Shown in pieces: positions 13,188-64,000 of a DNA stretch of 64,000 bases. Position 1 is the stretch's first letter. The number at the start of each line of letters is the position of its first letter. The notes under the pieces were generated by a model. That model had not been told where the DNA came from and did not search any database. It was given only the letters and a program-made list of their open reading frames with translations. A program made the translations under genes and the position numbers. Source of the stretch: Aromatoleum diolicum (GTDB taxonomy: Bacteria > Pseudomonadota > Gammaproteobacteria > Burkholderiales > Rhodocyclaceae); contig NZ_WTVQ01000006.1 of NCBI RefSeq assembly GCF_012910955.1, forward strand, positions 62,001-126,000. Reading direction: 5' to 3'.

Positions 13188-13997
13188 CTAGGCCACGGGT
13201 CCAGTACGCTTCAACATCCCCCGCTGCGGGTCATACCCGTGGACGGCAACCATGAAGAAGGCAATCAACGACACGACGACGATCCCGGTCGAAGCGGCGG
13301 CAAATTGACCATAAAGTGCGAAGCGGATCGCCTCCACCGCATGGGTGAAGGGGTTCCAACGGGCGATCTGGAAGACAATGGTGGCACCGGACTCCTCGAG
13401 CTTCCACAGCGGATACAGTGCCGGCGAGATGAAGAACATCGGGAAGATGACAAAATTCATCGTCCCGGCGAAGTTTTCGAGCTGCCGAACCTGGACCGAC
13501 AGCAGCAGGCCGAGCGCGCCGAGCATCATGCCGGCAAGCACGATTACCGGCAGCGCATACAGCCATCCGGACCAGGGAACCGCGACGCCAAACAGCACCG
13601 CAACCACCAGGAAGACATAAGTCTGCAGCACGGAGAGCAGCGTTCCGGCAAGCAGCTTGGCAAACAGCAAGTACGCGCGCGGCAACGGCGCGGTGAGCAG
13701 CAGCCGCATCATGCCCATTTCTCGGTCATACACCATTGCGAGCGAGGACTGCATGCCGTTGAAGAGGAGCACCATTCCCAGCAGCCCGGGTACGATATAT
13801 TCCTGGTAGGGGATGTAAGACTCGTACGGCGGGATGATCGAAACACCAAACACGTTCTGGAAGCCGGCAGCAAAGACCACGAGCCACAGCAACGGACGCA
13901 CGAGCGCAGAAGCGAAGCGACCACCTTGGCGGACGAACTTGACCACTTCACGACCGGTGATGGCCTGCAGCGCAAGCCAGGCATGGGGCAGTCTCAT
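13188..13997 (-). CDS. pedC: ABC-2 type permease of the PedC/LutF kind
   Basis: 269 residues with six hydrophobic segments and the ABC-2 layout (long cytoplasmic N-terminus, conserved VPGLLGMVLLFNGM, PLPRAYLLFAKLLAGTLL). Such permeases pair with an ATPase, here the product of 16250-17065. The set permease, binding protein, beta-propeller, ATPase is the PedA1A2BC/Lut set. That set is known from Pseudomonas putida and Methylobacterium to be needed for growth with lanthanide-dependent PQQ dehydrogenases. It is last in the minus-strand unit and starts 21 bp after the binding-protein gene. The transported species is inferred from family context. Confidence 0.75.
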   Translation of the reverse strand: MRLPHAWLALQAITGREVVKFVRQGGRFASALVRPLLWLVVFAAGFQNVFGVSIIPPYESYIPYQEYIVPGLLGMVLLFNGMQSSLAMVYDREMGMMRLLLTAPLPRAYLLFAKLLAGTLLSVLQTYVFLVVAVLFGVAVPWSGWLYALPVIVLAGMMLGALGLLLSVQVRQLENFAGTMNFVIFPMFFISPALYPLWKLEESGATIVFQIARWNPFTHAVEAIRFALYGQFAAASTGIVVVSLIAFFMVAVHGYDPQRGMLKRTGPVA

Positions 13998-14018: not shown

Positions 14019-15224
14019 TCAGAGGGCGCAGCTACTGTCGCGCCGGTCGAAACCGAGCGTGTCCATGTTGTTCGTTGGATGCAAGAAGCCATCTATTGGT
14101 GCGCGCTCAAACACAGCGTTGTGGGTCGCAAGCAGGATCGGCTGGCGTAGTTGATTGTCCCAAGGGCGGAAGCCGAGTCGATTGCCTTTGAAGCCATCAA
14201 TCGTGACGTCCCCCTCCTTGAGGTACTTCACGACCGCCGGGAAGTCGGCGTTTTGCGTGCGCACGACACTCTCGACAACCGACTTCACGGCGATCCACGC
14301 CGCCCAGTCGGAATCGGCCATCCGCCGCCCGGCCTGCTTCTCCATGCGTGAGTTGAGCTGTGGCGCGCCATTACGTTCCCAGGCCCAGTGCCACGCTACG
14401 GCCACGAGGCCATCGGCTCCGGCGACCGGACGGGGACGCACGGTACGGTACGGGACGCTGCGCGCGAACTCGCCATCACTGTCGGCGACGAAGACCACGT
14501 CATGGTCACTCCCGGCGGTGAGCAGTGCGACGTTACCCTGGTCGCGCTGGCGCGGATCGTTGCTTAGCACGAAGGGCTTCTTCTCGACGATCTTCACGCC
14601 GAAGCGCTTGGCCGAGCGCTCGAAGGCTTCGGCGATCAAGTGATCGTCCGGCAGTGGGCCTTCGAGCATCAACACTGAGCGCCATTTGCGCGACACAAGG
14701 TACTGCACGAGTGCGTCGGCAGTCATCGCGTGGTTCGGTAAAGTGTGCAGCAGGTTGGGTTGGCATTGCGTCTGGCGCAGGGCGTCGTCCGCGGCCGAGA
14801 CGTTGAAGAGCAACAAATCGCGGCTGCGAACGGCGCGCGCGAGTTCAGCGACGACCGCCGCCGGGGCGTCGACGAGGAAGTAGCGCACGCCCTGGCCATG
14901 GAGGCGCTCGACGGCCGCGATCAGCGGCTTCGCGTCGGCGCCGGTGACGCGTTCAAGCGTGAAGTCGACGCCCACCGCCTTGCCTACGAACTGCGCCTCG
15001 CGGATCGCCACTTCCGCGCCGGCGTGAGGACGCCCGAGCGGCTGGGCAAGAGCCCGGCGCGCGAGACGAGTCTCCTCGTAGCGCGGATCGCCGTCGATTT
15101 CGAGGTGCACGATGCGGACGGTCCCCGCCCCTGCTGCGGCGGCAGGAAGCAACGCGGCCAATCCGCCGAGAACGGCCAACAGCCGCATGACACGCCCGAG
15201 CGGATGGCGGAGCGAAATTTCCAC
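14019..15224 (-). CDS. pedA1: periplasmic binding protein of the PQQ-dehydrogenase-linked ABC system (PedA1/LutA-like)
   Basis: 401 residues. The signal peptide (hydrophobic LLAVLGGLAALLPAAAAGAG) is followed by a type-I periplasmic-binding fold with VRIVHLEIDGDPRYEETR, VRYFLVDAPA, NALMT-like DALVQYL and VLMLEGPLPDDHL. It resembles the binding component annotated in quinoprotein alcohol dehydrogenase loci (TIGR03863 kind, from memory). It lies 9 bp after the beta-propeller gene and should deliver ligand to the ABC-2 transporter. No metal-binding motif is obvious. Confidence 0.75.
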   Translation of the reverse strand: MEISLRHPLGRVMRLLAVLGGLAALLPAAAAGAGTVRIVHLEIDGDPRYEETRLARRALAQPLGRPHAGAEVAIREAQFVGKAVGVDFTLERVTGADAKPLIAAVERLHGQGVRYFLVDAPAAVVAELARAVRSRDLLLFNVSAADDALRQTQCQPNLLHTLPNHAMTADALVQYLVSRKWRSVLMLEGPLPDDHLIAEAFERSAKRFGVKIVEKKPFVLSNDPRQRDQGNVALLTAGSDHDVVFVADSDGEFARSVPYRTVRPRPVAGADGLVAVAWHWAWERNGAPQLNSRMEKQAGRRMADSDWAAWIAVKSVVESVVRTQNADFPAVVKYLKEGDVTIDGFKGNRLGFRPWDNQLRQPILLATHNAVFERAPIDGFLHPTNNMDTLGFDRRDSSCAL

Positions 15225-15233: not shown

Positions 15234-16211
15234 TTAATCGTCGATCACGACCGAATGCGGTACGCGCCCGACATGGACCGAGCGCAACACCTTGCGGCTT
15301 CGCGTGTCGATGATGGAGAGGTCGTCCGAGAGACCATTGACGACATAGAGCTGACTTTCATCACGATTGAGCGCCACCCCCCAGGCGCGCTTGCCGACGA
15401 GGAGGTAGTCCTGCACTTCGCGACTCGCGACGTCGACGACGGCGACATGGTTCGCGCGCCCGAGCGTCACATAGGCGGTCTTGCCATCGCGAGTCATCGT
15501 GATGCCGACCGGCGTCACGTCGTCTGGACGGAAGCCCTTCGGCTTGAAATCGACGTTGCCCTTCACGGCGTTGCGCCCGGCATCGATGATCGAGACGCGT
15601 GCGCCCATCTCGTTGCTGACCCACACTTCGCTGCCGTCCGGCGTGATCGCGAAGCGCCGCGGGCGGTTGCCGACAATAACGTTGGCAACGATATTGTTGG
15701 TTGCCGTATCGACGACGTGCACCATGTTGGCGACTTCGGAGGTAACGTAAACGCGTTTGCCGTCGGGGCTCACGCGCACGCCTTCCGGCTCCTCGCCGAC
15801 TTCGACGCGGGCGACTGCCTTGCTCGACGCAACGTCGATCACGGAGAGCTGGGCCCCCTCCTCGTTCGACACGTATAGGCGTTTGCCATCGGCGGACAGA
15901 TCGAACATCTCGGGATCCTCGCCCACCGGAATGCTGCGCGTGACCTTGAGGTGCGCGATGTCGATGACGTCCACTCGATTATTCTTGCTCGAGACGACAT
16001 AGAGCAGCATCCGGTCCGGACTGAGACGCATGTCGCGCGGCCGGTGGCCAGTCGGAATGGTTTTCACGACCCGCCAGGTCTTGCCGTCAAGTACAGTCAC
16101 GGCGTTGTCGTTCTCGCTGCTGACAAAAACGTAGCCGGTGTCCTTCGCGCCGGCGGCGCCTGCAGCAAGGGCCAGCACGAATGCGGCGGTCGTCATCTTG
16201 GTACGAGTCAT
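15234..16211 (-). CDS. pedA2: exported YVTN beta-propeller protein (PedA2/LutB-like)
   Basis: 325 residues from ATG 16211, where a signal peptide (TAAFVLALAAGAAGA) begins; longer readings are Arg-rich nonsense. Seven-blade propeller made of repeats such as VFVSSENDNAVTVLD, LYVVSSKNNRVDVID, LYVSNEEGAQLSVID, VYVTSEVANMVHVVD and VWVSNEMGARVSIID. This is the PQQ-linked ABC-repeat family found next to quinoprotein dehydrogenases. It acts in the periplasm, perhaps as a binding or scaffold protein of the transporter. It lies between the ATPase and binding-protein genes. Confidence 0.8.
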   Translation of the reverse strand: MTRTKMTTAAFVLALAAGAAGAKDTGYVFVSSENDNAVTVLDGKTWRVVKTIPTGHRPRDMRLSPDRMLLYVVSSKNNRVDVIDIAHLKVTRSIPVGEDPEMFDLSADGKRLYVSNEEGAQLSVIDVASSKAVARVEVGEEPEGVRVSPDGKRVYVTSEVANMVHVVDTATNNIVANVIVGNRPRRFAITPDGSEVWVSNEMGARVSIIDAGRNAVKGNVDFKPKGFRPDDVTPVGITMTRDGKTAYVTLGRANHVAVVDVASREVQDYLLVGKRAWGVALNRDESQLYVVNGLSDDLSIIDTRSRKVLRSVHVGRVPHSVVIDD

Positions 16212-16249
16212 GGGGGGGCTCCGATATTTCTTCTTCGGTTCACGGCGTT

Positions 16250-17065
16250 TCAACCCTGACTGCCGCCGGTGAGTTTCAGGAAAGCCTCGGCGAGCGTCGG
16301 CGCACCTGTGGATCGCACGAGCGCGTCGGGGTGCCCCTCGGCGAGGATGCGTCCGTGGTGCAGCACAATCACCCGGTCGGCGGCCTCCGCCTCGTCGACG
16401 AGATGGGTCGCCCACAGCACAGCGACACCGCGGTCACGCAGGGCGAGCACTTCATCGAGCAGCTGTCGGCGCGACGCAGGATCGAGCCCGACGGTCGCCT
16501 CGTCCATCAGCAGCACTGCCGGCTCATGGACGAGCGCGCGAGCAAGCTCTACCTTGCGCCGGTTGCCGCCACTCAATGCACGGACTGGGTCCTTAGCCCG
16601 GTCGGCAAGCCCGACGCGGCGCAGGTTTTCGTCGATGCGCTCGCGCGCGCGACGACCGCCGATTCCATGCAGCCGTGCATGGAATCCGAGGTTGGTGAAG
16701 ACGCTCAGATCGAGGTCGACCGTCGTCTGCTGGAAGACGACGCCGATGCCGGCGAGAGCCCGCGCCGGATCACGCCGGATGTCATGGCCACAAACCCGGA
16801 TTCGTCCGGTATCGGCATTGAAAAGACCCGTCAGCAACTGGAACAAAGTGCTCTTGCCGGCCCCGTTCGGCCCAAGCAGCGCAACGAATTCGCCGGACTG
16901 AACGGCCAGACTCACTCCGCACAACGCTTCGCGCATGCCATACGACTTGCGTACATCGTCAAGGTGCAGCAAAGCATTGACGGGCGAAGCGGCGCCAGAA
17001 ACGTCGCGGTCGTCCCCGGTGCCCCGCTGCGCCGTCCCCGGCGTCGCATCGATCGCTTCAGACAT
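16250..17065 (-). CDS. pedB: ABC transporter ATPase of the PedB/LutE kind
   Basis: 271 residues from ATG 17065 (MSEAIDATPG). Walker A GPNGAGKST, signature LSGGNRRKVELARAL, Walker B VLLMDEATVGLDP and the H-loop WATHL are all intact. It belongs to the ABC-2/drug-export ATPase class and would energise the permease at 13188. It starts 4 bp after the stop of the previous ATPase gene, so the two transporter systems are in one transcription unit. Confidence 0.8.
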   Translation of the reverse strand: MSEAIDATPGTAQRGTGDDRDVSGAASPVNALLHLDDVRKSYGMREALCGVSLAVQSGEFVALLGPNGAGKSTLFQLLTGLFNADTGRIRVCGHDIRRDPARALAGIGVVFQQTTVDLDLSVFTNLGFHARLHGIGGRRARERIDENLRRVGLADRAKDPVRALSGGNRRKVELARALVHEPAVLLMDEATVGLDPASRRQLLDEVLALRDRGVAVLWATHLVDEAEAADRVIVLHHGRILAEGHPDALVRSTGAPTLAEAFLKLTGGSQG

Positions 17066-17069
17066 CCGC

Positions 17070-17831
17070 CTATTGCTCCTTCCCCGCCCCGCCGTCCGCG
17101 AGGCCCGCAAGGATCTCGGGATGCTCCGCCAGCAGGCGAGCATATAGTTGTGCGACGTTCGAGTCTTCGGGCGAGCGCGGACGCGGCAGATCGACCGGCA
17201 ACTCCAGCACGACATGCCCGGGCGCGGGAGACAGGAAACACACACGGTCGGCTAGCGACAGCGCTTCGCGCAGGTCGTGCGTGACGAAGAGCACGGTGCT
17301 ACGACAACGCTGCCACAATTCGACGAGCATTCCACGCAAGCGGTTGGCGGTGGGTACGTCGAGCGACACGAACGGTTCATCCATCAGTAGCACCGCCGGT
17401 TCGATCACGAAGGCACGCGCCAGTGCGACGCGACGCTGCATCCCGCCGGAAAGCCGGCCAGGATAAGCATGCATCACGTCGCCCAGCTCCATGGCGCGCA
17501 GCAGATTGATCGCCCGTTCCCGCGCTTCTGGCGACTGCCCGCCGACGAGAAGGACGTTGTCGAGCACGGTGAGCCAGGGCATCAGGCGCGGATCCTGGAA
17601 CATGAAACCTGTTTCGTGCGACGCGCCGGGTGCCCCGATCCGCATACGTCCATCCACGTCGTGATCCAGGCCACCGACGGCATTGAGCAGCGTGCTCTTG
17701 CCGCAGCCTGAGGGCCCGACAACGCAGACGAACTCACCGGGCGCGGCACACAGCTCGAGCCCTGCCAGCGCGACATGAGGACGCCCGCCGCGGTCTGCGT
17801 AGGATTTGCGATTGATCGTGACTTCAAGCAT
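17070..17831 (-). CDS. ABC transporter ATPase, nitrate/sulfonate/taurine type
   Basis: 253 residues with Walker A GPSGCGKST, signature LSGGMQRRVALARA, Walker B VLLMDEPFVSLD and H-loop FVTHD. This is the SsuB/TauB subfamily, distinct from the ABC-2 ATPase immediately downstream. It forms an importer with the permease at 17835 and the binding protein at 18656. The substrate is unknown. Confidence 0.85.
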   Translation of the reverse strand: MLEVTINRKSYADRGGRPHVALAGLELCAAPGEFVCVVGPSGCGKSTLLNAVGGLDHDVDGRMRIGAPGASHETGFMFQDPRLMPWLTVLDNVLLVGGQSPEARERAINLLRAMELGDVMHAYPGRLSGGMQRRVALARAFVIEPAVLLMDEPFVSLDVPTANRLRGMLVELWQRCRSTVLFVTHDLREALSLADRVCFLSPAPGHVVLELPVDLPRPRSPEDSNVAQLYARLLAEHPEILAGLADGGAGKEQ

Positions 17832-28219: not shown

Positions 28220-28268
28220 GGTCTCCGTTCCTTTGTCTTGTGGTTGGCCACCCGCGGGCCTGCCATCT

Positions 28269-41598: not shown

Positions 41599-41636
41599 GA
41601 TGTTTATTTCCTATGCGCAGGTAATCGGGCACGAAT

Positions 41637-44105: not shown

Positions 44106-45446
44106 ATGAGTCTGCGTCTGCGCGTCATTCTTCTAATGAACTCACTCCTACTCGTCTTCGTAGGGGCGCTTAGTGTCGTCTCCCTGGACATCCTGAAATC
44201 CGCGGTTCGCGAGGAAGTGCGGGCTGCAACCAAGGTGGCGACACAAACCTTGACGGCAGCGGCAAAGATGCAAGATGGCGAGATTTCTCGTCTGAAGCCC
44301 TTTCTAGAATCGTTGGGGCGCTTACGGGCAAACGATCTGGTACTCATTGACGCCAACGGGCAGGAGTTGTATCGCGCGCCGCCATCCGAGTACAAGAAAG
44401 ACCGTTACGCCCCTGACTGGTTCACCCGCATGATCGACGCCAGTCCCGAAGCGGTGACGCTCCCTCTACGAGGCGGCACCTTGCAGATCATCCCTGACAG
44501 CTCGCGCGCCACTGTCGATGCCTGGGATGATGCCTGCAACCTGCTTGCGCTAATCCTCACCTTCTTTCTCGGTGTGCATTGGCTCGTGCAATGGCTTATC
44601 AGCCGCACGCTGCAGCCGATGCATCACATTCTCATTGGATTGAGCGAAATTGAACGCGCCAACTTCTCCGCACGTCTCCCTCACTTTGCTTTGCCGGAGT
44701 TTTCGCAATTAAGCGAGACCTTCAACCGCCTCGCAGCCAATCTGGCTTCGACCTTGAACGAAAACCGCCGACTAGAGCTAGATCAGCACGTCGCTGCGCT
44801 CCTGCGGCAGCGCCTGGAAGAAGAGCGACGCAGTCTTGCCCGCGAGATGCACGACGAACTTGGGCAATGCATAACAGCGATCCGGACCATCGCAGTCTCG
44901 ATCTCCCATCGCGCGCAGTCCGCATCGCCAGATATTCACGGCAGAGCGCGTACGATTGCGTCAGTCGCGGCGGGAATGTATGACATGGTGCACCACATGA
45001 TTTCGCGGCTCCGCGAAGCCGAGCCTGCCGAACCTGATCAAGTACCGCCGCTACGAGCTTTGGTCGACGCATGGAAAGTGCGGAACCCGGGCATCAACGT
45101 TAATTGGAACAGCGGCCCCATCGGACTCGAATCGATGGGTCACGATCTGAGCTTGGCAGTATTCCGCGTGGTGCAGGAGTCACTCACAAATGTCGCGCGC
45201 CACTCCGGTGCAACTCAGGTCGACATCACCCTGCAATGCGACGTTCGAAAGGGACTTGAGGTCGTGGTCCGGGACAATGGACGCGGACTCACGGGTGATG
45301 CAAATGCCAAGACCGGGGGCTTTGGTTTGCTAGGAATGCGCGAACGAGTGGAATCGCTTTGCGGAACGTTTTGCCTCGACAGCGCGCCCGGCCATGGGGT
45401 ATGCGTCATGGCCCAGTTGCCCATCGCAAGGAGTAGCCTAGATTGA
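44106..45446 (+). CDS. sensor histidine kinase (NarX/UhpB-type)
   Basis: 446 residues. Membrane segment at 8-28, periplasmic part of about 100 residues (29-135), second segment near 140-162, HAMP linker (LISRTLQPMHHILIGLSEIE), HisKA_3 dimerisation domain with the phospho-acceptor in REMHDELGQCITAIR, and ATPase motifs NVARHSGA, DNGRGL and GFGLLGMRERV. Works with the response regulator that follows. Such pairs control quinoprotein alcohol dehydrogenases in Pseudomonas (ErcS/PedS types), an attractive but unproved role here. Confidence 0.88.
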   Translation: MSLRLRVILLMNSLLLVFVGALSVVSLDILKSAVREEVRAATKVATQTLTAAAKMQDGEISRLKPFLESLGRLRANDLVLIDANGQELYRAPPSEYKKDRYAPDWFTRMIDASPEAVTLPLRGGTLQIIPDSSRATVDAWDDACNLLALILTFFLGVHWLVQWLISRTLQPMHHILIGLSEIERANFSARLPHFALPEFSQLSETFNRLAANLASTLNENRRLELDQHVAALLRQRLEEERRSLAREMHDELGQCITAIRTIAVSISHRAQSASPDIHGRARTIASVAAGMYDMVHHMISRLREAEPAEPDQVPPLRALVDAWKVRNPGINVNWNSGPIGLESMGHDLSLAVFRVVQESLTNVARHSGATQVDITLQCDVRKGLEVVVRDNGRGLTGDANAKTGGFGLLGMRERVESLCGTFCLDSAPGHGVCVMAQLPIARSSLD

Positions 45447-46105
45447 AAACCATTCAGGTCCTACTCGCAGACGATCATGCGGTTGTCCGCATGGGGTTCC
45501 GCCTGCTCCTGGAAACCACCGACGACATCCGCGTGGTCGCCGAGGCATCGAGCGGAGAGGAGGCTTGCCGCATCATCGCCGCGCAGCAGCCGGATGTCGT
45601 AGTCATGGACGTCTCAATGCCGGGCATCGGAGGAATCCAGGCAACCAAACGCCTCATCGAGCGTCATCCAAACCTGCGCATCCTGATGCTCTCGGCACAT
45701 ATGGATAGCGTCCATCCGAGACTCGCACTGAAAGCCGGCGCAAGGGGATATATGACGAAACGAAGCGCGGCGGAGGCATTGGTGAGTGCTATTCGCCAGG
45801 TCGCCCAAGGCTGCATTTACCTTGAACCAAACATCGCCCACGAACTGGCACTGCAACAAATCAATGGAGCCAATGATCCAGTGGAGATGCTCACCCTAAG
45901 GGAATTCGAAGTATTCAAGCAGTTGGCAAGTGGCAGATCAGTACGGCAGGTGGCGGACAGTTTCTTCCTGAGCCAAAGCACTGTCGGAACCCATCTCTAC
46001 AACATCAAACAGAAGCTTGGCGCGGGAAACAGCGCTGAACTTGCCATGTTTGCGGTGCGCTCCGGCATTGTCGATATCGGCGCAGTTAATCCTATCCCAG
46101 GATAA
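45443..46105 (+). CDS. NarL/LuxR-type response regulator
   Basis: 220 residues starting at TTG 45443, which overlaps the kinase stop (TTGA); AAGGAG lies 9 bp upstream. Receiver domain with acidic pocket LLADDHAVVRMGF, phospho-Asp in VVMDVSMPGIGG and the MTKRSAAEAL lysine; C-terminal LuxR helix-turn-helix LTLREFEVFKQLASGRSVRQVADSFFLSQSTVGTH-type region. Followed by a good terminator at 46234-46276. Confidence 0.9.
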   Translation: MKTIQVLLADDHAVVRMGFRLLLETTDDIRVVAEASSGEEACRIIAAQQPDVVVMDVSMPGIGGIQATKRLIERHPNLRILMLSAHMDSVHPRLALKAGARGYMTKRSAAEALVSAIRQVAQGCIYLEPNIAHELALQQINGANDPVEMLTLREFEVFKQLASGRSVRQVADSFFLSQSTVGTHLYNIKQKLGAGNSAELAMFAVRSGIVDIGAVNPIPG

Positions 46106-46304: not shown

Positions 46305-46910
46305 ATGGCGCAGGAGAGTTCGATCACCATAATCGCGCGGCAACCAATCGTCGATCGTAGATTGCACGTGGTTGCTTACGAATTATTGTTCCGCTCGCAC
46401 GCTGGCTGTAACACGATTGACAATATCGATTCGGCATCCGCTACCGTAGTCGTTCGGGATGCTCTTCGAAACGTCGGCATGAGTACCATAGTTGGTGATT
46501 GCACAGCCTTCATTAATGTGGATGGACCGACACTACTCAGCCCGGCCATCGAGGCCTTGCCGCCAGAACGGGTAGTGTTCGAACTGCTAGAGACCATTGA
46601 GGTTGACGAGTCGATCTTAAAGCGTTGCCGCGAACTAAAGAGACGGGGCTATCGCCTAGCCCTTGACGACTTCGTCAGTTACGACGAAGCCTATGAACCG
46701 CTGCTGGAGATCGTGGACATCGTCAAACTCGACGTTCTGCAGCTTAGCGCCGAGTGTTTGTCGCGACTGGTGAGGCACTTACGCTCGTGGCCGCCAAAGC
46801 TGCTCGCGGAAAAAGTCGAGACGCCACAAGGCGCCAGGACCTGCTTTGACCTAGGCTTTAGTTTCTTTCAGGGGTTCTATTTCGGTCGGCCGGCAGCGAT
46901 GCAAGTGTGA
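46305..46910 (+). CDS. EAL-domain protein without HDOD partner domain
   Basis: 201 residues, GGAG 8 bp ahead of ATG. It follows the YuxH pattern (IIARQPIVDRRLHVVAYELLFR, FINVDGPTLLS, FELLETIEVDE, GYRLALDDFVSYD, IVKLDVL, LLAEKVET, GFSFFQGFYFGRP). The usual YuxH protein has an HDOD domain after the EAL; here the chain stops after the EAL. The EAL signature is FELLE and the metal-binding residues LDDF and EKVET are present, so catalysis is possible but cyclic-di-GMP binding is as likely. Overlaps the NosR-like gene by coupling. Confidence 0.8.
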   Translation: MAQESSITIIARQPIVDRRLHVVAYELLFRSHAGCNTIDNIDSASATVVVRDALRNVGMSTIVGDCTAFINVDGPTLLSPAIEALPPERVVFELLETIEVDESILKRCRELKRRGYRLALDDFVSYDEAYEPLLEIVDIVKLDVLQLSAECLSRLVRHLRSWPPKLLAEKVETPQGARTCFDLGFSFFQGFYFGRPAAMQV

Positions 46911-46924
46911 TGAGGGGTCGGTGC

Positions 46925-49219
46925 ATGACATTGCTCGCCCGCCAAATAACTTTGTTTGCGGGCTGGCTTCTGACGCTCTCCATGCCCGCCGTAGCCGGTG
47001 AGTTGACTATCTCCCAACTCGAGAGCCGCTTTCCCCCGCCCCTTCATGTTCAGCAGCAGCTGGCCGATTTGCCGGCATGGCCACTCACGAGCGACGTTCA
47101 GCCCGGAGAGGGCACGATAGGGTACGTCTTCGAATCGATCGACCTTGCGCCACTGCCCGGTTTCGCAGGGACCCCTATCAATCTTCTGGTCTCGCTGGAT
47201 CGAACCGGCAACTTCATGAATGTCGAGGTTCTCAACCAACGCGAACCAATCTTTCTCGACGTTCTGGACCGCCAACTCTTGCGTGAGTTTGTCGGCCAGT
47301 ACGCAGGAAAGAGCGTTAAGCGGGAGATCGTTGTCGCCGCGAACCAATCCACTAACCCACTTCGGAATTCTGCTAACCGCATCGAGCTGGACGGGATCAC
47401 CCGCGCCACCACCTCCGTTCGCATCCTGAATCAGACGGCCCTTGCGTCCGCACTCGCAGTCGCGCGCGCCAAGTTAGGGTTCACGGATTTCGGCCAACGT
47501 GCACCGGCTCAGCCACGCATCGACGTATTTGAGCGCCGTGATTTCACAGAACTGCTAGCACGCGGCATGATCGCCCGACTGCGCGTCAGCAACGAAGAAA
47601 CGGAAAGAATATTCACGGAGACCGACGGGGTCGGTGCGGACCCGGATGGTCTCGCCCACCCGAGCGCCCCGTTTGTTGACCTCTACGTTGCCTACCTCAA
47701 TGCACCGACAATCGGACGCTCCCTTCTGGGGGACGATGCCTATGAAAAGTTGATGCACAAGCTACCGGAGGGGCGACAGGCACTGTGGGTCGCCACCGCA
47801 GGCCGGTATTCCATGATCGATGATGATTTCGTCCCCGCCGGCATACCACAGCGTCTTTCCCTGACCCAGGACGGATTGCCCGTGGAACTGCGCGACCTAG
47901 TATTCGATCTGCCCACGCTGATCGGGGCGCCGGAATTCAACGCTTCACGCATCTTCAGCGTGTATGCCGGGGCTGGTCTGGACCCCGGCCGCACCATGGA
48001 ACTGACGCTTACCCTGACGCGTGTCACGAAGAAGGGGCTCATCCTGCCGCGGATCATTCAGCAACCGGTGACGCTCAAATACCGCCCACCCAAAACGCTG
48101 TTTGAATACCCGGCCGAGCCTTTGCCAGAATGGCTACAAGCATGGAACGCCCGATGGGTCGATCTCGTGATCATTTCTGTCGCGTTCCTGGTGCTGAGTC
48201 TCGTGTTGTGGCGCCCACGCTGGGTAGCTTCACGAGCCGAACGATTGAACTCCTTCCGCGTTGTGTTCCTCAGCTTTACCCTGATTTACATCGGCTGGTA
48301 CGCACAAGGACAGCTTTCCGTTGTGCAAATTACCGGGATACTGAGATCTTTGATGTCGGGACAGGGACTCGGCAGCCTCCTCTATGATCCGGTGTCGGTT
48401 CTTCTTATCGCCATCGCAATGGTAACCCTGTTGATTTGGGGACGCGGCACGTTTTGTGGCTGGCTGTGCCCCTTCGGAGTCCTGCAGGAGGCGGTTAGCG
48501 CACTATCCCGGCGCCTGCGCCTCCCTCGTCTGCATCTACCCACTCCCCTTGTCCACCGGCTCCAGCGTGTTCGATATGCGGTCCTTGCTGTCTTGGCTGT
48601 ATGCGCGGTGGCAACTCCAAGCGCCGCAGAATCATTGGCCGAAGTCGAACCGTTCAAGACGGCCATTACCGTCGGCTTCGACCGCAGCTGGCCCTTCGTC
48701 GCCTATGCGGTACTCCTGTTGATTGCCGGGGTCTTCTATTTCAAATTCTTCTGCAAGTTCATCTGCCCTCTCGGAGCCGCACTGAGCCTCGGTGGGAGGC
48801 TGCAAATTCTTTCGTGGATACCACGCCGCGAAGTATGCGGCCGCCCTTGTCAAACCTGTCGCACTCGTTGCGCGTACGATGCGATCAAGGCGGACGGAGC
48901 GGTCAGCTATGATGATTGCTTCCACTGCTTGGATTGCGTCGGCATTTACCACGACATCGAACGCTGCGCGCCGATACTGCTGTATCGGAGGAAAGGTTTA
49001 GTCATGACGCCTGCCGGCGTACGCAAAGGGGGCAAGACGCTGCGCAGTATCGATGAGCTTCCGGGAAAACTCCGCGCTAGCGTGATTTCCCAAACTTCGG
49101 CGGCCCAGCCATGCAGACGATTCATAGATGGCGTGCTCGTGCGAACACGTGCACGCCATCTATCGAATCAATGGGTCTCGTTGGGAGGCACGATGCCGAA
49201 TCGCTTCATCTGGCGATAG
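46925..49219 (+). CDS. NosR/NirI-like membrane flavo-iron-sulfur protein
   Basis: 764 residues from ATG 46925, chosen for GAGGGG 8 bp upstream and the signal peptide that follows; ATG 46907 overlaps the EAL stop. Periplasmic FMN-binding domain with DGITRATTS, a covalent-flavin-type Thr motif, and a region ending near 410. Then membrane segments with the two FCGWLCPFG / FCKFICPLG CxxxCP motifs, and a ferredoxin-like end CGRPCQTCRTRC and CFHCLDC. NosR gives electrons to nitrous-oxide reductase, but no nos gene is here, so it may serve a quinoprotein or a sensor. Its last 12 codons lie in a repeat shared with 58518 and overlap the convergent sigma-54 gene by 52 bp. Confidence 0.82.
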   Translation: MTLLARQITLFAGWLLTLSMPAVAGELTISQLESRFPPPLHVQQQLADLPAWPLTSDVQPGEGTIGYVFESIDLAPLPGFAGTPINLLVSLDRTGNFMNVEVLNQREPIFLDVLDRQLLREFVGQYAGKSVKREIVVAANQSTNPLRNSANRIELDGITRATTSVRILNQTALASALAVARAKLGFTDFGQRAPAQPRIDVFERRDFTELLARGMIARLRVSNEETERIFTETDGVGADPDGLAHPSAPFVDLYVAYLNAPTIGRSLLGDDAYEKLMHKLPEGRQALWVATAGRYSMIDDDFVPAGIPQRLSLTQDGLPVELRDLVFDLPTLIGAPEFNASRIFSVYAGAGLDPGRTMELTLTLTRVTKKGLILPRIIQQPVTLKYRPPKTLFEYPAEPLPEWLQAWNARWVDLVIISVAFLVLSLVLWRPRWVASRAERLNSFRVVFLSFTLIYIGWYAQGQLSVVQITGILRSLMSGQGLGSLLYDPVSVLLIAIAMVTLLIWGRGTFCGWLCPFGVLQEAVSALSRRLRLPRLHLPTPLVHRLQRVRYAVLAVLAVCAVATPSAAESLAEVEPFKTAITVGFDRSWPFVAYAVLLLIAGVFYFKFFCKFICPLGAALSLGGRLQILSWIPRREVCGRPCQTCRTRCAYDAIKADGAVSYDDCFHCLDCVGIYHDIERCAPILLYRRKGLVMTPAGVRKGGKTLRSIDELPGKLRASVISQTSAAQPCRRFIDGVLVRTRARHLSNQWVSLGGTMPNRFIWR

Positions 49220-51162
49220 ATGGTCACGCGGGACACGCCCAGCTCAGCTGCAGTCGCTGTGATGTTCCACTTGTGCCTCCTGAGCAGCCGGAGCAGCTCC
49301 TCGCCTTTCGGCTCGGCAGGTGTCTCGGTCGGCAACGCTGCCGTGCGGCCCGGCCAAGGGGATTCTTCGAGCTGCACGGCGGGGATACGCGGGAGCACAA
49401 GTTCGCGAGGCAAGTCCTGCACCCGGATCTCACCATCTTCGGAGAGCGCCAACGCATAGCGCAACGCATTGCGCAGCTCGCGGATGTTACCCGGCCAGGA
49501 ATAACGGGTTAGTGCCTCCAGCGCGGCCGAGGAGATGGAAGCGGCTCCCCCCTGCGCTTCGGATTCAGCGCGGAGCAAGCGCTCGATGATGAAGCCGATA
49601 TCTTTGCGCTCGCGCAAGGATGGCAAGTACAGCGTGGCCCCGCCAAGCCGATAGTACAGATCCTCGCGGAATTTGCCGTCCGCAATCATCGTGCGCAGAT
49701 CCCGGTGCGAGGCGGCAATCACGGTGAGCTCCACGCGCACCGGCTTCTCCGCGCCGATCGGCATCACTTCGCTCTCCGACAGCACCCGCAGCAGCCGCGT
49801 CTGCAAGTGCAGCGGCATGTCGCCGATCTCATCGAGGAACAGCGTGCCACCATCCGATTGTTGGATCAGCCCCTTCATGCCTTTGCTGCGCCCGCCCGTA
49901 AAGGATCCCGGGGCATAGCCGAAGAGTTCGCTTTCGATCAGCGACTCGGGGATCGCCGCGCAGTTGAGCGCTACGAAGGGCTTGCGTGCCCGCGTGCTGG
50001 ACTTGTGCAGTGCCCGGGCAAATATCTCCTTCCCCGAGCCGGTCTCGCCCTGGATCAGAATATTGACCTTGCGATTGACCAGACGCTTGGCTTGCTCGAG
50101 CGTGCGCTGCATTACCGGATCATCACCAGCCAGCGAATCGAGCGCCGCGTGATCTTCGGCCCCGAGTTGGCTGGGAAGCCACTTCTCCTGGAAGATCACC
50201 CGCAGATCCTTCTGCCGTCGTGGCAGCCTCACCGACAGGTAGTACAGATTCTGCCCATCCGCGGTCATCACCGAGTTATCGGAGCCCACCCCGCGCGCCG
50301 CGCGCCAGATGTCGTCCATGGTGCATTCGAACACCTCGGGCACTGCGCGACCGATGATCCAGTCGCTTGGCTGCCCCGCGCTCGCCAACTCGCGACGAAC
50401 CGTGGTGTTTGCCCCCACGATCACCCCCTCGTCGTTGAAGGCAAGCATCATCTCGCCACTCACCTCGGCAAACGCCCAAGTGCGGCACAGTCGCAGGATC
50501 CATTGGTCCCCGAAGCGAAGAATGAAGTTCGCGTCCTCGATCGCCCTCGCGTGCAGGGCCGTCAGCTGCAGCGCCAGGTACTGGCTGTCCTTGCTGCGCG
50601 GCGAGTTCATGGCGGTGATGTTCAGCACCGCGAGCAAATCCCCGCGGGGATCGAAAATGGGGGCTGCCGTGCACGACAAACCGATGTGCTTGACGTTGAA
50701 GTGATCCTCCTGATGGCAGATTAGGGGGGTTCGCTCCGCAATGACCGCACCGATGCCGTTGGTGCCCGCGTGATTCTCCTTCCAGTCGGCACCCACATAT
50801 ACGCCGGCCGCCTTGAGCTCCGCATCCCCGCCCGCATTGGCGATGTAGTCCACCGTGACCCCTTCGCCATCAGACAACAGCAGCACATAACCGAGCGACG
50901 CCACCTGCTTGTACAGCTGCTCCATCCCCGAGCGCGCCACGCGCAGAAATTCGTCGATGCGCTCCTTGTGCTCTCTCAGTTGCGAGGACGTGATGATTTG
51001 CGCAGGCTCCGGACGTGCAGGATCCAAACCATAGCTCGACGCACAACGCATCCACGAGCGCCGTATGGCTTCGTCCGGCTCCGCCATCCTCGACGGATGA
51101 CCGCGCCCACTGATCACATTGTTGACTCGCTCAATGTGCCGAGACTGGCCTTCTATGACCAC
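49168..51162 (-). CDS. sigma-54-dependent activator, AcoR-like
   Basis: 664 residues starting at GTG 51162 with GAGGAGGAGG 5 bp before it. An N-terminal GAF-type sensor (about 70-220) and a PAS-like segment (about 240-330) precede the AAA+ core with Walker A GETGSGKE, a variant sigma-54 contact loop GSFTGG (usual GAFTGA), Walker B GGTLFLDEIGDM and RFREDLYYRL-type arginine region. The Fis-type helix-turn-helix at the end is NITATAAELGVSRVTIYRQM. AcoR-type activators often control acetoin or alcohol dehydrogenases. The final 103 bp recur at 58518. No -24/-12 promoter was found in the window. Confidence 0.88.
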   Translation of the reverse strand: MVIEGQSRHIERVNNVISGRGHPSRMAEPDEAIRRSWMRCASSYGLDPARPEPAQIITSSQLREHKERIDEFLRVARSGMEQLYKQVASLGYVLLLSDGEGVTVDYIANAGGDAELKAAGVYVGADWKENHAGTNGIGAVIAERTPLICHQEDHFNVKHIGLSCTAAPIFDPRGDLLAVLNITAMNSPRSKDSQYLALQLTALHARAIEDANFILRFGDQWILRLCRTWAFAEVSGEMMLAFNDEGVIVGANTTVRRELASAGQPSDWIIGRAVPEVFECTMDDIWRAARGVGSDNSVMTADGQNLYYLSVRLPRRQKDLRVIFQEKWLPSQLGAEDHAALDSLAGDDPVMQRTLEQAKRLVNRKVNILIQGETGSGKEIFARALHKSSTRARKPFVALNCAAIPESLIESELFGYAPGSFTGGRSKGMKGLIQQSDGGTLFLDEIGDMPLHLQTRLLRVLSESEVMPIGAEKPVRVELTVIAASHRDLRTMIADGKFREDLYYRLGGATLYLPSLRERKDIGFIIERLLRAESEAQGGAASISSAALEALTRYSWPGNIRELRNALRYALALSEDGEIRVQDLPRELVLPRIPAVQLEESPWPGRTAALPTETPAEPKGEELLRLLRRHKWNITATAAELGVSRVTIYRQMKRFGIVPPNETH
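49183..49285. repeat. 103-bp direct repeat, left copy
   Basis: Identical to 58518-58620 at 101 of 103 positions and in the same orientation. It covers the Fis helix-turn-helix codons of the sigma-54 activator and the last codons of the NosR-like gene. Confidence 0.9.
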
Positions 51163-58477: not shown

Positions 58478-58517
58478 AAATCGTGGATCGCATACGGCCT
58501 CGCACTCAGTTTTCGGT

Positions 58518-58620
58518 GGGAGGCACGATGCCGAATCGCTTCATCTGGCGATAGATGGTCAAGCGGGACACGCCCAGTTCAGCTGCAGTCGCTGTGATGT
58601 TCCACTTGTGCCTCCTGAGC
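58518..58620. repeat. 103-bp direct repeat, right copy
   Basis: Matches 49183-49285 at 101 of 103 positions in the same orientation. Together the two copies bracket a 9.3-kb segment with the sigma-54 activator, the adipyl-CoA genes and nemA. Confidence 0.9.
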
Positions 58621-58670
58621 TGCCCCTAGCCTTTCAGCTCGGCGGGTGTCGCGGTCGGCACCCTTTGTCG
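58518..58670 (-). pseudogene. 3' fragment of an AcoR-like activator gene
   Basis: Read on the minus strand it encodes RHKWNITATAAELGVSR, nearly the last helix-turn-helix of the activator at 49168. Beyond the 103-bp high-identity part (to 58620) the similarity continues at a lower level to about 58670, with a small deletion and a stop codon in frame. No body of the gene is present. It is a leftover from duplication or rearrangement. Confidence 0.85.
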
Positions 58671-59342: not shown

Positions 59343-60653
59343 TCACTCCGCGGCTGCGCTCTTGACATATGCACGGATGCGTTCGATTTCGGCCTCTGTC
59401 ATGACCTTCTCCCATGCAGGCATCACAGTCCCCGGACGGCCCTTCTTCACGGTAGCAATGAAGTCAGCGTCACTTCCCTCAAAATTCCTCAAATCCGGAA
59501 AGATTCCCCCTGAGATCACGTTTCTTCCGTGACACTTGCCGCAGGCTCGGTGGTATAGATTGAATCCGCTTTCACTCTTCTCTGCGCTTTGTTCGACAGC
59601 ATTTTGCTTCATCGGCGGCTCGCTCACTCCCTGGGCGCCTTGCGCCTCCTGCTCCTCAGCCGGGGGCCAACCCGAGGCCTTTCCGACGCCTCCAACAGTT
59701 CGAATGAACGGTGATTGTGCCCCCCGGATAGTCGCACGTGTGGCTTGGTCGCCTCGCCAGACGGTCCGGGTAAGCGATGGTTGCGAGCCATCCAGTGCGG
59801 CACCTGCCTGATTTCGGCTAGCCCTGACAGTCCGCCTGATCTCCGCTCCAACACTCGAATTGAGCGTGGGCACACCGTATGCCTTCAGAATCTCATCGCG
59901 TTTCCCCGACTGGATCAGCGCACTGATGGCAGCATTGACCGCATCCAGGAAGGCCGGATCGTCCTTGTTCACCCCCACTGCAAGCGAAAACGTTAATTCC
60001 GGGCGCGTTTCAGTCAAAATCCGAACCTGCGCCGCTGGGTTCTGCTTCGCCAACCAGCCGGCCATCGGAGCCCAGACCAAACCGGCTGGAATTTCATCCC
60101 TCGCCACAGCATTAAAGACCTCGGCCTGTTTGGAAAAGAGCACACGGTCATAGCCGAGGTCAAACACGACAAAGTCCGAAACGGTGTGCAGCCCCACACC
60201 AATGGGTTGCCCTTTTAGATCCTCCAACCGGTTTTCCTTACGTCCCTTTCCGATCACGATGGCAAAGCCACTGATGAGATAGGATTGAGAAAGCGCAAGG
60301 CGCGGCCCCGCACCGTCCAATCGCTTATCGGTCGGGATGCCCACGATGAAATCACATCGTCCTTCATATAGTTCACGAAAGACCTTCCCCATGCGTTCCA
60401 TGGCAAACCAGTTGTATTGCAGTTTCGCGCCAAGGCTCTTGGCAATCTCCGAAGCAACCTCCATGTCATATCCAGGAGGATCGAGCTTCGAATTGGAAAG
60501 AGGTAGGTTGTTCGGATCAGCGCAAACGGTCGTAACCCCGGTTGACCTGATGCGTTCGAGAGCGGTCGCACCGACCTGGGTTGCCGACACCGTCAGCAGC
60601 AGTGCGGTGAGCGAATTCGCCACCAAACGTCGAACAAAGAATTTGTATGCCAT
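59343..60653 (-). CDS. fusion of quinoprotein-associated binding protein (XoxJ/MoxJ-like) and cytochrome c (XoxG-like)
   Basis: 436 residues. Signal peptide (SLTALLLTVSATQVGA), then a solute-binding-protein fold (about 30-265: VCADPNNLPLSNSK, GYDMEVASEIAKSLG, DFIVGIPTDKR, QPIGVGLHTVSDFV) of the kind linked with methanol/ethanol quinoprotein dehydrogenases. A Ser/Gln/Glu-rich linker (about 270-355) follows, then a class I cytochrome c domain with the haem site CGKCH (C371, C374, H375) and the axial Met in PGTVMPAW. The two functions are normally separate genes. It lies 42 bp after the PQQ dehydrogenase gene and would pull electrons straight from it in the periplasm. Confidence 0.87.
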   Translation of the reverse strand: MAYKFFVRRLVANSLTALLLTVSATQVGATALERIRSTGVTTVCADPNNLPLSNSKLDPPGYDMEVASEIAKSLGAKLQYNWFAMERMGKVFRELYEGRCDFIVGIPTDKRLDGAGPRLALSQSYLISGFAIVIGKGRKENRLEDLKGQPIGVGLHTVSDFVVFDLGYDRVLFSKQAEVFNAVARDEIPAGLVWAPMAGWLAKQNPAAQVRILTETRPELTFSLAVGVNKDDPAFLDAVNAAISALIQSGKRDEILKAYGVPTLNSSVGAEIRRTVRASRNQAGAALDGSQPSLTRTVWRGDQATRATIRGAQSPFIRTVGGVGKASGWPPAEEQEAQGAQGVSEPPMKQNAVEQSAEKSESGFNLYHRACGKCHGRNVISGGIFPDLRNFEGSDADFIATVKKGRPGTVMPAWEKVMTEAEIERIRAYVKSAAAE

Positions 60654-60695
60654 GACTCGTATGGAGAGGGGGTGAGCCCCCCTCTCCCTCCATCT

Positions 60696-62408
60696 TTAGT
60701 TTTGCAGCGAGAATACCCAGAGCGTCGCACCGCGATTGATCTTCTTCAGGCTATCTGGCACCGCCTTCCCAGCCCACAGGGGGAAGGAACCACCAAGACC
60801 CGAAACCACGGCGACGTACTGCTTGCCGTCGACCGCATAGGAAACAGGCGCGCCAATGATTGAAGAAGACGCGGGGAAGCTCCACAGCTCCTTACCGGTC
60901 GCTGCATCGAGGGCATTGAATTTGCCTTCGAAAGTGCCGAAGAAGATCACGTTGCCAGCGGTGGACAAAACGCTGGCCCCAAGCAGCGGTGTCGGGTTGG
61001 TCCAACGCCATGCGATCTTGTTCGCCGCCAGATCGACGCCCACCATCTCACCCTTGCCCGGCCCTTCGTGCTCACCACCGATACCGAGGTACATCACGCC
61101 CCGGCGGTAGCTCGCCTCTTCGGCCGTCCACTTGTAGCAAAGGTCATTCATCGGGATGAAGGCCATGCTGCTCTGAGGATTCACGGCCATATGCGCCAGA
61201 CCCTTCGCACCGAAATAAGTCGGACACACGAGCGTGGGCTTACCCGGGGCATATCGCTTCTCCGGGTCGATATTGGATCGGCCTGTCACCGGATCGACTG
61301 TTCCCCAATTTACCTTATCGTAAAATTTGAGGGCCGACTGAAACTTTCCGTCGGTACGATCCAGTGTATACAAGTAACCATTTTTGTTGGCCTGCACTAA
61401 CGCTTTGACCGGTTTGCCGCTCCGCTTCAGGTCTACAAGTATCCCTTCTGCCATGGCGTCATAATCGAACGCGTCGGCCGACGTGAACTGGAAGTCCCAC
61501 TTCTTCTTCCCGGTATCCGGATCAAGCGCCAGCATCGAATTTGCGCCGCGGTTATCGCCCGGACGCATCGCCCAGTTCCAAGGTGCTGGGTTTCCCGTGC
61601 CCCAATAGGTCGTATTGGTCTCGGGGTCATAGGTGGCGGTAAGCCAAGCGGCAGCACCTCCATACTTCCAGGAGTCATTGCCCCAAGTCTCGTTACCAGG
61701 CTCACCCGGCTTGGGAACGGTATAGGTCTTCCACACCGATTCGCCAGTCTTCCAGTCGTAGGCCTCGATGAAGCCCTCGACACCGTACTCGCCGCCGGCG
61801 ACACCAACCATCACCTTGCCCTTGGCAACCAATGGGGCCATCGTCATGCTGTAACCGGCCGTGTAATCGGCAACAGTTTTATCCCACACGACCTTGCCCG
61901 TTTTTGCATCGAGGGCCACCAGGTGGGCATCCAGAGTTGTGAAATACACCCTGTCCTCGTAGATCGACACTCCCTTGTTGATCAGGCCACAGCACGTGAA
62001 TTGACCAATATCAGCGGGGAGCTTCAGGTTGTGGCGCCAGAGCCGCTCACCTGTTTTCGCATCCACAGCTTCGATCCATTGGTTCGAGACTGACAACACC
62101 ATGATGCCGCTATTCACTATCGGCGTGAGTTGCTGGCCTTCAAGCGAACCCAGCGAATACGCATACTCGAGCTTCAGGTTCTTGACGTTCTTGCTATTGA
62201 TCTCTTTGAGCGGACTGAAACGTGTGCCGTTATAGTCTCGGCCGTAGCTGAGCCAGTCGTTAGGATCCTTGGCCGCATTGACCAGCCGCTGCTCGGTCAC
62301 ATTCCTCCAATCTGCGGCAAACGCGGATCCCGGCATCACTGCATACGCCGTGGACAATACAAGGGCCAATGTCAGTTTATTGAACGACTTGCCCGTTTTT
62401 TTTTGCAT
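60696..62408 (-). CDS. PQQ-dependent alcohol dehydrogenase with lanthanide signature (XoxF/PedH type)
   Basis: 570 residues, TAGGAGACAAAA before ATG 62408. Signal peptide ending AFAADW, eight-bladed propeller with W-motifs, the vicinal disulfide Cys139-Cys140 (FTCCGL) that sits over PQQ, and Asn273 in GNPAPWN. The catalytic Asp315 is followed two places on by Asp317 (FDYDAM). The spacing Asn to Asp is 42, as in methanol dehydrogenase. Ca enzymes have Ala or Ser at the second position and Ln enzymes have Asp, so a lanthanide is predicted. Substrate unknown; primary or cyclic alcohols fit the neighbourhood. Confidence 0.9.
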   Translation of the reverse strand: MQKKTGKSFNKLTLALVLSTAYAVMPGSAFAADWRNVTEQRLVNAAKDPNDWLSYGRDYNGTRFSPLKEINSKNVKNLKLEYAYSLGSLEGQQLTPIVNSGIMVLSVSNQWIEAVDAKTGERLWRHNLKLPADIGQFTCCGLINKGVSIYEDRVYFTTLDAHLVALDAKTGKVVWDKTVADYTAGYSMTMAPLVAKGKVMVGVAGGEYGVEGFIEAYDWKTGESVWKTYTVPKPGEPGNETWGNDSWKYGGAAAWLTATYDPETNTTYWGTGNPAPWNWAMRPGDNRGANSMLALDPDTGKKKWDFQFTSADAFDYDAMAEGILVDLKRSGKPVKALVQANKNGYLYTLDRTDGKFQSALKFYDKVNWGTVDPVTGRSNIDPEKRYAPGKPTLVCPTYFGAKGLAHMAVNPQSSMAFIPMNDLCYKWTAEEASYRRGVMYLGIGGEHEGPGKGEMVGVDLAANKIAWRWTNPTPLLGASVLSTAGNVIFFGTFEGKFNALDAATGKELWSFPASSSIIGAPVSYAVDGKQYVAVVSGLGGSFPLWAGKAVPDSLKKINRGATLWVFSLQN

Positions 62409-62584: not shown

Positions 62585-64000
62585 TTATCCGGCAGATCGG
62601 TCTACTCCCAGGAGTTGTCGATTTCGTCTTTGCCCCCCCGCACGCTCGAGTACAACGCGGCGATGCAAGCTGGCCACCATTTCCTCAATTGAATGCGCTT
62701 CATTCGCACTGAAATCCTCCCACCCAGTTGCGTGCGCCACCGCCTGTGCGGAAAAGCTCATCGCCCCATCGACGCCCCGACATGCTGACAAACACACGCC
62801 AAGGCAGTTGGCCCATAGGTGTTGGCTATGCGGTCGGGGCGTCGAACGAATGCCGGTCACTGAGTCCTTGGACGCCATACGGTGGGCAGGACGGAGCCCC
62901 AGGTCGCCCCACTCTCCGCCGCTCCCCTTCTGAAGCAGCACAGCATTGGATTTCGGGCAGTCCGGTTTTGGGGGCTCTCTCTCCGGGCCGACCCGGCCAC
63001 CTACTTCAGTTGTGCCGCAGTCAGTGGATTCCGCGCACAAATTACGAGCGGCAAAAGAGATCCGGGCGATTTCGGTCAAACTCTTCCGCAGCACCTCACC
63101 ACCAAAACCGTAGCCCTCCACGATCTGATCAAGCAGCTCCCTCAATGAATCAACGCTACCGGAGGCCAGTTCGAATCCATTGGTATCGTCGAGAGTGACA
63201 ATGCCGCTATCGAACAATTGGAAGGCTCTAGCCATCACGGTGCTGGCAAGCGCGGAATCGATTCCTAAGGCATGGAAATAGTCAATAACGGCAATAGCAG
63301 CAGACGGATCCGTGATTCCGAGTATCTCCGCAACGTCACCCACGCTTTCGTAGCAACCACAGATGCTCGCGCTGGCCCGGGCAAACTCGCCCTCATTGAC
63401 GTGGCAGTCATACGCGCATACGGTCCCGCAGTTGAAGCACCCCTTCGGCACCACGGTCCAAGAATCAGCAGCCGCCGTCGCCAATTGATCGCGAAACGCA
63501 ACAGCTAAGCTCGCCTTGGCCAACTGTCGCCCCATGAGGACCTGAGACTCACTTTCGGGCACATGCCCGAGCAGTTCGGTCGCGCGGTCGATAGCCGAAC
63601 CGAACGAATCACTCTCCGTTGATACAGAGCGCGACCAGACCAGTGTGACATCGTCGAATTTGACCGGGCTCGCAAGGGGCACCGGCCGCGATCCGTAAAC
63701 AGCAATCGCTTTGAGCCGCTTTGAACCCATGACAGCACCGACGCCACCAATGTGCACGCCGTGATTGCGGTCGTTGCGGATACTCGCCCCGGGCAGCATC
63801 GCCTCACCTGCCGGTCCGATGCACGCAACGCTGAACTTCGAGTGTTCGAACAAGGAGCGTTTGATCAACCGTTCGGTATCCCGTGTATCAAGCCCCCAGA
63901 AAGCACTTGCGTCGCGGATCGCAACCTTTTCGTCTTCAATTGAGAGAAACACCGGCTCTCGCGCTCTACCCGTTACGACTAAGCCGTCGTATCCTGCATG
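62585..64000 (-). CDS. aldehyde:ferredoxin oxidoreductase-like protein, 5' end beyond the window, atypical C-terminus
   Basis: The minus-strand frame is open through the window edge (AGYDGLVVTGRAREPVFLSIED at the edge fits the AOR N-terminal domain) and stops at 62585; about 471 codons are seen. Present are GVGAVMGSKRLKAIAVYG (tungstopterin region) and the Fe-S cysteines C-x2-C-x3-C in GCFNCGTVCAYDC, with the fourth probably in NCLGVC. The usual PRG and GAxH blocks before that last Cys are not recognisable, and the end after ATGWEDFSANEAHS is short and Arg-rich. Either a divergent family member or a gene damaged by frameshifts near 62600-62960. Confidence 0.65.
   Translation of the reverse strand, partial: HAGYDGLVVTGRAREPVFLSIEDEKVAIRDASAFWGLDTRDTERLIKRSLFEHSKFSVACIGPAGEAMLPGASIRNDRNHGVHIGGVGAVMGSKRLKAIAVYGSRPVPLASPVKFDDVTLVWSRSVSTESDSFGSAIDRATELLGHVPESESQVLMGRQLAKASLAVAFRDQLATAAADSWTVVPKGCFNCGTVCAYDCHVNEGEFARASASICGCYESVGDVAEILGITDPSAAIAVIDYFHALGIDSALASTVMARAFQLFDSGIVTLDDTNGFELASGSVDSLRELLDQIVEGYGFGGEVLRKSLTEIARISFAARNLCAESTDCGTTEVGGRVGPEREPPKPDCPKSNAVLLQKGSGGEWGDLGLRPAHRMASKDSVTGIRSTPRPHSQHLWANCLGVCLSACRGVDGAMSFSAQAVAHATGWEDFSANEAHSIEEMVASLHRRVVLERAGGQRRNRQLLGVDRSAG

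Follow-up and report, generated by a model that had tools for sequence, protein, structure and literature searches.

A probably lanthanide-dependent PQQ alcohol dehydrogenase with a fused XoxJ-like and cytochrome c partner in Aromatoleum diolicum

In the stretch of Aromatoleum diolicum DNA analysed here (64,000 nucleotides, hereafter the window), a minus-strand reading frame at 60696..62408 encodes a PQQ alcohol dehydrogenase of 570 amino acids with an ATG start, termed F. The protein is probably a periplasmic enzyme oxidising alcohols (possibly aldehydes) with a light lanthanide (La to Nd), and it would belong to an uncharacterised branch. From its sequence, its motif, its branch, a gene fusion beside it, the neighbouring genes and a transporter, we infer the identity of the metal, the substrate, the route of the electrons, the chaperone role of the partner's J half and the regulation. 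The transporter, the fused partner (JG) and the regulators lie outside 60696-62408 and were not used in the earlier note on this DNA; they give stronger support for lanthanide use than the motif does. What sets F apart is less the motif than the fusion in its partner protein and its own place in the family tree.

The plus strand of 60696..62408 is interrupted by stops, and the minus strand is the coding strand for F. Judged by eye, the N terminus is an apparent signal peptide. F scored 605.6 bits against the NCBIfam model TIGR03075 (PQQ-dependent dehydrogenase, methanol/ethanol family; cut-off 480.05), a family match far beyond chance, and the top solved structure by sequence was PedH (6zcw; 426.6 bits, E = 1.6e-126). 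The predicted model of F (mean pLDDT 76.2, pTM 0.83), whose confidence is low for residues 274-276 and 278-288 adjoining the metal site, matches the propeller fold of the TIGR03075 family. A fold search with this model returned PedH first (Z 46.9, rmsd 2.2, 526 aligned, 41% identity), with Ca enzymes and other PQQ dehydrogenases within a few Z units of it.

By alignment, the predicted metal and PQQ residues of F are Glu207, Asn273 (in GTG-N-PAPW), Asp315 and Asp317. The earlier note had placed Asn273, Asp315, Tyr316 and Asp317 at these positions, with Asp315 lying 42 residues after Asn273, and had aligned Asp315 with the metal-site Asp of methanol dehydrogenase. Both statements hold: Asp315 falls on the first residue of D-F-D in XoxF5 (6oc5), D-Y-D in XoxF2 (4mae) and D-Y-A in MxaF (4tqo, 1lrw), and Asp315 and Asp317 together meet D-F-D of PedH (6zcw), D-F-S of ExaA (1flg) and D-F-T of 1kv9. 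The vicinal pair Cys139-Cys140 was aligned with the pairs of PedH and XoxF2/XoxF5. Gly206, the residue before Glu207, is shared with PedH and three XoxF rows (XoxF2 and two XoxF5), and the residue before the metal Glu is Ala or Asp in MxaF, 1kv9 and ExaA. Since XoxF1 has Asp before its Glu, according to a passage of PMC8546591, Gly206 is no requirement for lanthanide enzymes. The residue before the catalytic Asp is Phe314 in F, where PedH has Trp, and Trp is retained in the MAG relative described below. F also has T-S-A-D (to Asp312) where PedH reads T-P-H-D, and Lys342 at a place occupied by Arg in 89 of 104 aligned rows.

These 104 rows (101 different sequences) had been selected for their similarity to F, with coverage of about 440 residues needed (129 matches before this filter), so that the share of rows with D-x-D is no survey of the whole family. 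The motif was present in 102 of them, or in about 96 of 98 relatives when rows of the same gene were merged. It was accompanied by Glu207 and Asn273 in 68 of the 104 rows, and 51 of those 68 had the Cys pair too. In the 42-row set used for the tree, which includes solved enzymes, D-x-D occurred in 37 rows, and the rows lacking it were ExaA, 1kv9, two MxaF and one further relative (L110). D-x-D is the rule among the relatives of F, and with 102 of the 104 carrying it, the motif alone was rejected as proof of lanthanide use.

The earlier note had called the second Asp the accepted mark of lanthanide-dependent enzymes. This agrees with three published sources in the excerpts available: PMC11996626 uses D-x-D as a lanthanide indicator, assumed to show at least facultative lanthanide use; PMC8546591 cites work in which the second Asp is essential in XoxF (Good et al. 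2020); and PMC5487730 describes PedH, which has the same motif, as active only with lanthanides. However, the mark is less specific than claimed, given the 102 of 104 relatives and a characterised enzyme, the membrane glucose dehydrogenase P15877. This enzyme also carries D-x-D and, in the same excerpt of PMC11996626, is predicted to be facultatively lanthanide-dependent in a passage that mentions, among other metals, Ca, Mg, Zn and Sr. As groups with biochemically confirmed lanthanide use, that excerpt names methanol dehydrogenases (MDHs) and type 2b only, although D-x-D is scattered across many branches. The D-x-D observation on F is confirmed, and its lanthanide interpretation is supported in part. 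The near universality of the motif, the metals named for P15877 and the surroundings of Asp315, which differ from those of PedH and XoxF (Phe314, S-A before Asp312, Lys342), would also suit an enzyme whose D-x-D site could bind lanthanides but which in fact uses Ca2+, Mg2+ or a range of metals. We consider this unlikely, since the ligand set of F and its G-G-E are those of PedH and XoxF2/XoxF5 and a PedA1A2BC-type importer is encoded within the same window.

Other variants of the metal site were seen among related proteins. The relative L110 (genome G280) has Glu at the place of the catalytic Asp (E-Y-D). A branch of PQQ dehydrogenases in the same bacterial family has D-W-D and, in place of the vicinal Cys pair, QLHPTNR (L009-L017, L022, L042, L043, L145 and L147); in the two of these loci that were read at length, L042 and L043, a relative of the activator described below lies near the D-W-D genes. 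A third PQQ-type protein of the genome, encoded on contig C91 (L038), has Asp for the metal Glu, no Cys pair, and D-F-D.

In the tree of 42 sequences, whose deep branching order is weak and in which some long branches meet, F joined only one relative (G032; L040/L044), with support of 100/100 and about 62-63% identity over the length of F. This relative is taken to be from the Rhodocyclaceae MAG AWTP1-18. Three further groups each had support of 100/100. The first consisted of PedH, ExaA, two relatives and the PedH-type enzyme that this genome encodes on contig C69 in another gene than F; the second, on a long branch of 0.87, of XoxF2, two XoxF5 and two MxaF; and the third of Bradyrhizobium enzymes with L154, L155 and L041. 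F lies outside the first and the second, in a tree drawn without ExaF, XoxF1, XoxF3 and XoxF4 and without named references of the other Keltjens PQQ-ADH types. Membership of PQQ-ADH type 2b is unsupported, F being outside the PedH group, and the comparison with methanol dehydrogenase in the earlier note was misleading, as F falls outside both the XoxF/MxaF branch and the PedH (type 2b) branch. No characterised member of the branch of F was found in the literature searched.

F shares its D-Y-D site with XoxF, its XoxJ-like and cytochrome partner parallels the XoxF/XoxG/XoxJ arrangement, in which the dehydrogenase gene adjoins those for the cytochrome and J, and Cys395 and Cys424 lie at positions that are also Cys in XoxF and MxaF. 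An identity as a XoxF-type methanol dehydrogenase is hardly credible and was rejected on the basis of the tree; in phmmer, the XoxF structures 6dam, 4mae, 6oc5 and 7o6z scored from 330.4 down to 276.3 bits, compared with 426.6 for PedH. The J half and cytochrome of JG also form one chain, J first, which differs from XoxG and XoxJ. With PedH/ExaF (type 2b; 6zcw), F has in common the fold, the metal-ligand set, D-x-D and G-G-E, and both clusters contain a PedA1A2BC-type transporter, a kinase/LuxR-regulator pair and PedG-like and cytochrome partners. It differs from PedH in its separate branch (about 41% identity), in Phe314 and Lys342, and in the fusion of its partners.

The taxon samples were searched with strict limits, so the rarity of F is approximate. 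At E<=1e-60, 15 of 17 genomes of the genus sample matched F, and only its own genome exceeded 45% identity. At the family level, a match at E<=1e-30 was obtained for 82 of the 199 genomes sampled, the best besides its own at 63%. In the order sample, 12 of 399 genomes matched at E<=1e-138, own included (best other 49%; no G032 row). The class sample yielded only the genome's own match (1 of 369 at E 1e-145), and the phylum sample yielded three of 398 at E 1e-145, own included, the best other at 46%. Scanning of genome contigs with two short patterns gave 66 loci, the best at 63% and the next at 45% identity to F. Among plasmids, 573 records matched F, all below 60% identity, and no relative of F was found in the viral contigs scanned. 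Acquisition of F by horizontal gain is plausible.

The window contains a complete PedA1A2BC-type cluster (13188-17245), with four adjacent parts on the minus strand, all over curated cut-offs. These are a PedC-type ABC permease (13188..13997; TIGR03861, 365.1 bits, cut-off 241.35), a PedA1-type substrate-binding protein (14019..15224; TIGR03863, 464.5 bits, cut-off 413.6), a PedA2-type beta-propeller protein (15234..16415; TIGR03866, 364.4 bits, cut-off 287.3), whose open frame exceeds the family match at its start, and a PedB-type ABC ATPase (16250..17245, family match about 16268-16969; TIGR03864, 331.6-332.6 bits, cut-off 302.25). In the excerpted literature, PedA1A2BC is a lanthanide importer of Pseudomonas putida, and an excerpt of PMC12997753 reports that P. 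aeruginosa PAO1 lacks PedA1A2BC and is said to have no REE-dependent dehydrogenase. The transporter of the window lies about 43 kb from F. Contig C69 carries a second PQQ_ABC_ATP gene over cut-off, separated by about 9 kb from the gene for the PedH-type enzyme. This enzyme could account for the transporters, and the lanthanide context for F is therefore real but indirect. A pqqC gene over cut-off is also present in the genome.

Directly downstream of F, beyond a 42-base gap (60654-60695) that folds into a 10-pair hairpin, a single frame of 436 amino acids on the minus strand (JG, 59343..60653) joins a XoxJ/PedG-like binding protein (about residues 29-264) through a linker of about 85-100 residues to a cytochrome c (about 351-434) with the haem motif C-x-x-C-H. 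No ribosome-binding site before JG was evident by eye. The J half scored 110.5 bits against TIGR03871, below the cut-off of 212.15, and its best PDB match, the nearest among solved structures, was XoxJ (6onp, E 1.1e-19). In the MAG, the order is F-G-J, with cytochrome and J as separate genes. The J half of JG was 40% identical to this separate J, aligning with its residues 54-287, and the cytochrome half was 46% identical to the MAG cytochrome gene. With the J of the MAG as query, no second match besides JG was found in the window. The predicted model of JG was poor (mean pLDDT 63.9; residues 264-364 below 50), and the 50 matches listed in its fold search were all binding-protein folds or sensors derived from such folds, so that the assignment of the cytochrome half rests on sequence.

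Among 43 J-like frames, 39 of them distinct (loci L110 to L174 and eight larger loci, L040-L047), only that of the window, present twice (L124 and L171), also gave a match to G or contained C-x-x-C-H. Searches with the JG protein yielded matches in 27 of 399 genomes in the order sample (E<=1e-20) and 13 of 189 in the family sample (E<=1e-12), own included in both; the loci named above cover these matches in part. Only one of 142 records had one place covering 80% of JG, that of Methylocystis iwaonis, and this plasmid match over both halves proved to be two neighbouring genes and no fusion. A candidate J-G fusion in G060 was rejected for the same reason; the genes there follow the order F-J-G and are separate but share one reading frame, which shows how a fusion of J and G could arise. 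An explanation of JG by a frameshift or a missed gene boundary was also rejected, because the other two frames of the linker have stops and no signal-peptide-like stretch was apparent by eye. A stop may have been removed by a sequencing error within the JG frame. The genome contains a single copy of the linker DNA. At JG residues 271-330, the GC content by codon position is atypical for this gene, suggesting that the linker may stem from non-coding or unrelated DNA.

A comparable fusion is described in excerpts of PMC6688271 and PMC8498564 for Methylacidiphilum, in which a XoxG:J fusion (cytochrome cGJ) is encoded beside a lanthanide enzyme. JG resembles it in having a cytochrome fused to J beside such an enzyme as F is proposed to be, but the G:J protein (order as given by its name) has a truncated J and is accompanied by a separate xoxJ, whereas J comes first in JG. 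In Bradyrhizobium sp. BTAi1 (L046), a D-Y-D dehydrogenase is likewise followed by cytochrome and J genes; however, this dehydrogenase is 43% identical to F and belongs to another branch, its partners are separate and are followed by a XoxF5 gene, and its J is 24% identical to the J half of JG. For the XoxJ-like PedG of P. putida, the excerpt of PMC12997753 gives enzyme maturation or interaction with the cytochrome as proposed roles.

By analogy with PedH and XoxF, a lanthanide held by Glu207, Asn273, Asp315 and Asp317 would polarise PQQ, and Asp315 would serve as the base while the substrate is oxidised. The electrons of PQQH2 would pass one at a time to the cytochrome c domain of JG and from there into the respiratory chain. 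As proposed for XoxJ, MxaJ and PedG, the J half may help to load PQQ and the metal into apo-F, in which case a single polypeptide would supply both the activation factor and the acceptor of the electrons. The PedA1A2BC-type transporter of the window would import the lanthanide into the cell, and regulation of F would fall to a PedS2/PedR2-like pair together with a sigma-54-type activator. A bolder proposal, which we put forward only tentatively, is that F and the MAG relative form an unrecognised lanthanide-dependent lineage of alcohol dehydrogenases outside XoxF and type 2b, and that in A. diolicum the J-cytochrome fusion physically couples loading of the enzyme with removal of its electrons. 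F offers a small testable case outside MDHs and type 2b that has independent lanthanide context. Because JG links J, the putative activator, to the protein that would accept the electrons, it provides a natural tool for asking the role of J, for which the excerpt of PMC12997753 lists several proposals so far.

The candidate regulators lie at lower coordinates of the window. A HisKA_3 sensor histidine kinase (44106..45446, plus strand) shared 40% identity with the kinase encoded next to the PedH-type enzyme of this genome and 35% with one kinase in the MAG cluster, and a LuxR-type response regulator (45443..46105, plus) was 57% identical to the regulator beside the PedH-type enzyme and 51% identical to one in the MAG cluster. 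From their position, we infer that the two are PedS2-like and PedR2-like, respectively. They are followed by a NosR-like membrane protein (46907..48997, plus; open frame continuing to 49219), which scored 531 bits against the NosR model, below its cut-off of 1000, and by a GAF/sigma-54-type activator (49168..51162, minus); these were 51% and 52% identical, respectively, to their counterparts in the MAG cluster. In the MAG, the genes for F, G, J, the NosR-like protein and the sigma-54-type activator stand in a row in this order, with those for response regulators and a kinase after them. The window has the same parts rearranged, with kinase, regulator, NosR-like protein and activator followed by a block at 51.3-58.5 kb and then by JG and F. 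Most genes of this block are of beta-oxidation type; an IclR-type regulator and an OYE-type reductase are also encoded in it.

Just downstream of JG, a remnant of the 3' end of the activator gene was found at 58513..58660, with 89% identity over 157 alignment columns to the source copy at 49178-49334 and 79% identity over 53 amino acids. The remnant suggests that F-JG formerly adjoined a copy of the activator, and the repeat of 49178-49334 and 58513-58660 is possibly the scar of a rearrangement. Also downstream of JG, a DUF1097-like gene (58774-59289, minus), the later part of which scores PF06496, is split by an in-frame TAG (amber). Upstream of F on the minus strand lies an aldehyde:ferredoxin-oxidoreductase-like (AOR-like) gene of 584 amino acids (62585..64000, continuing beyond the edge of the window to about 64339; L037 6586-8340). 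Its AFOR_C match covers only positions 56-181 of 385, compared with nearly all in the copies on C69 and C112, and it had no match in the stretch of the MAG that was read (L040). Whether the AOR-like gene belongs to the unit of F is uncertain. A search for sigma-54-like sites in the 592 bases preceding F, in the 1 kb preceding the AOR-like gene and before JG found none; two candidates, assessed without a chance control, were found upstream of the MAG gene.

The amber stop in the DUF1097-like frame, the partial C-terminal domain of the AOR-like gene, the activator remnant, the occurrence of F in one of 17 genomes of the genus and the lack of a sigma-54-like site in those 592 bases would all fit a decaying locus, with F a relic or a poorly expressed gene retained by chance beside the PedH-type enzyme of C69. 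This is very improbable in our view, as F is free of stops over 570 codons, retains its metal and Cys-pair residues and its identity of about 62-63% to the MAG relative, and JG is an open frame of 436 codons with C-x-x-C-H. An alcohol dehydrogenase that probably uses a lanthanide remains the preferred reading of F.

Several features of the window were noted apart from this locus. An entire pathway common to a Methylocystis plasmid and the window was considered and rejected, the identities being 25-37% for the GMC oxidoreductase, the dehydrogenase and the J/cytochrome proteins, and the TPP-enzyme match being weak (22%). The gene for a GMC oxidoreductase, with that for a small neighbouring protein, is present in two copies (26639-28886 and 40021-42224) with mutual identities of 73% and 58%. 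The window that hosts F also carries genes of anaerobic aromatic breakdown, two genes of the anaerobic benzoyl-CoA pathway being over cut-off (TIGR03200 and TIGR03201).
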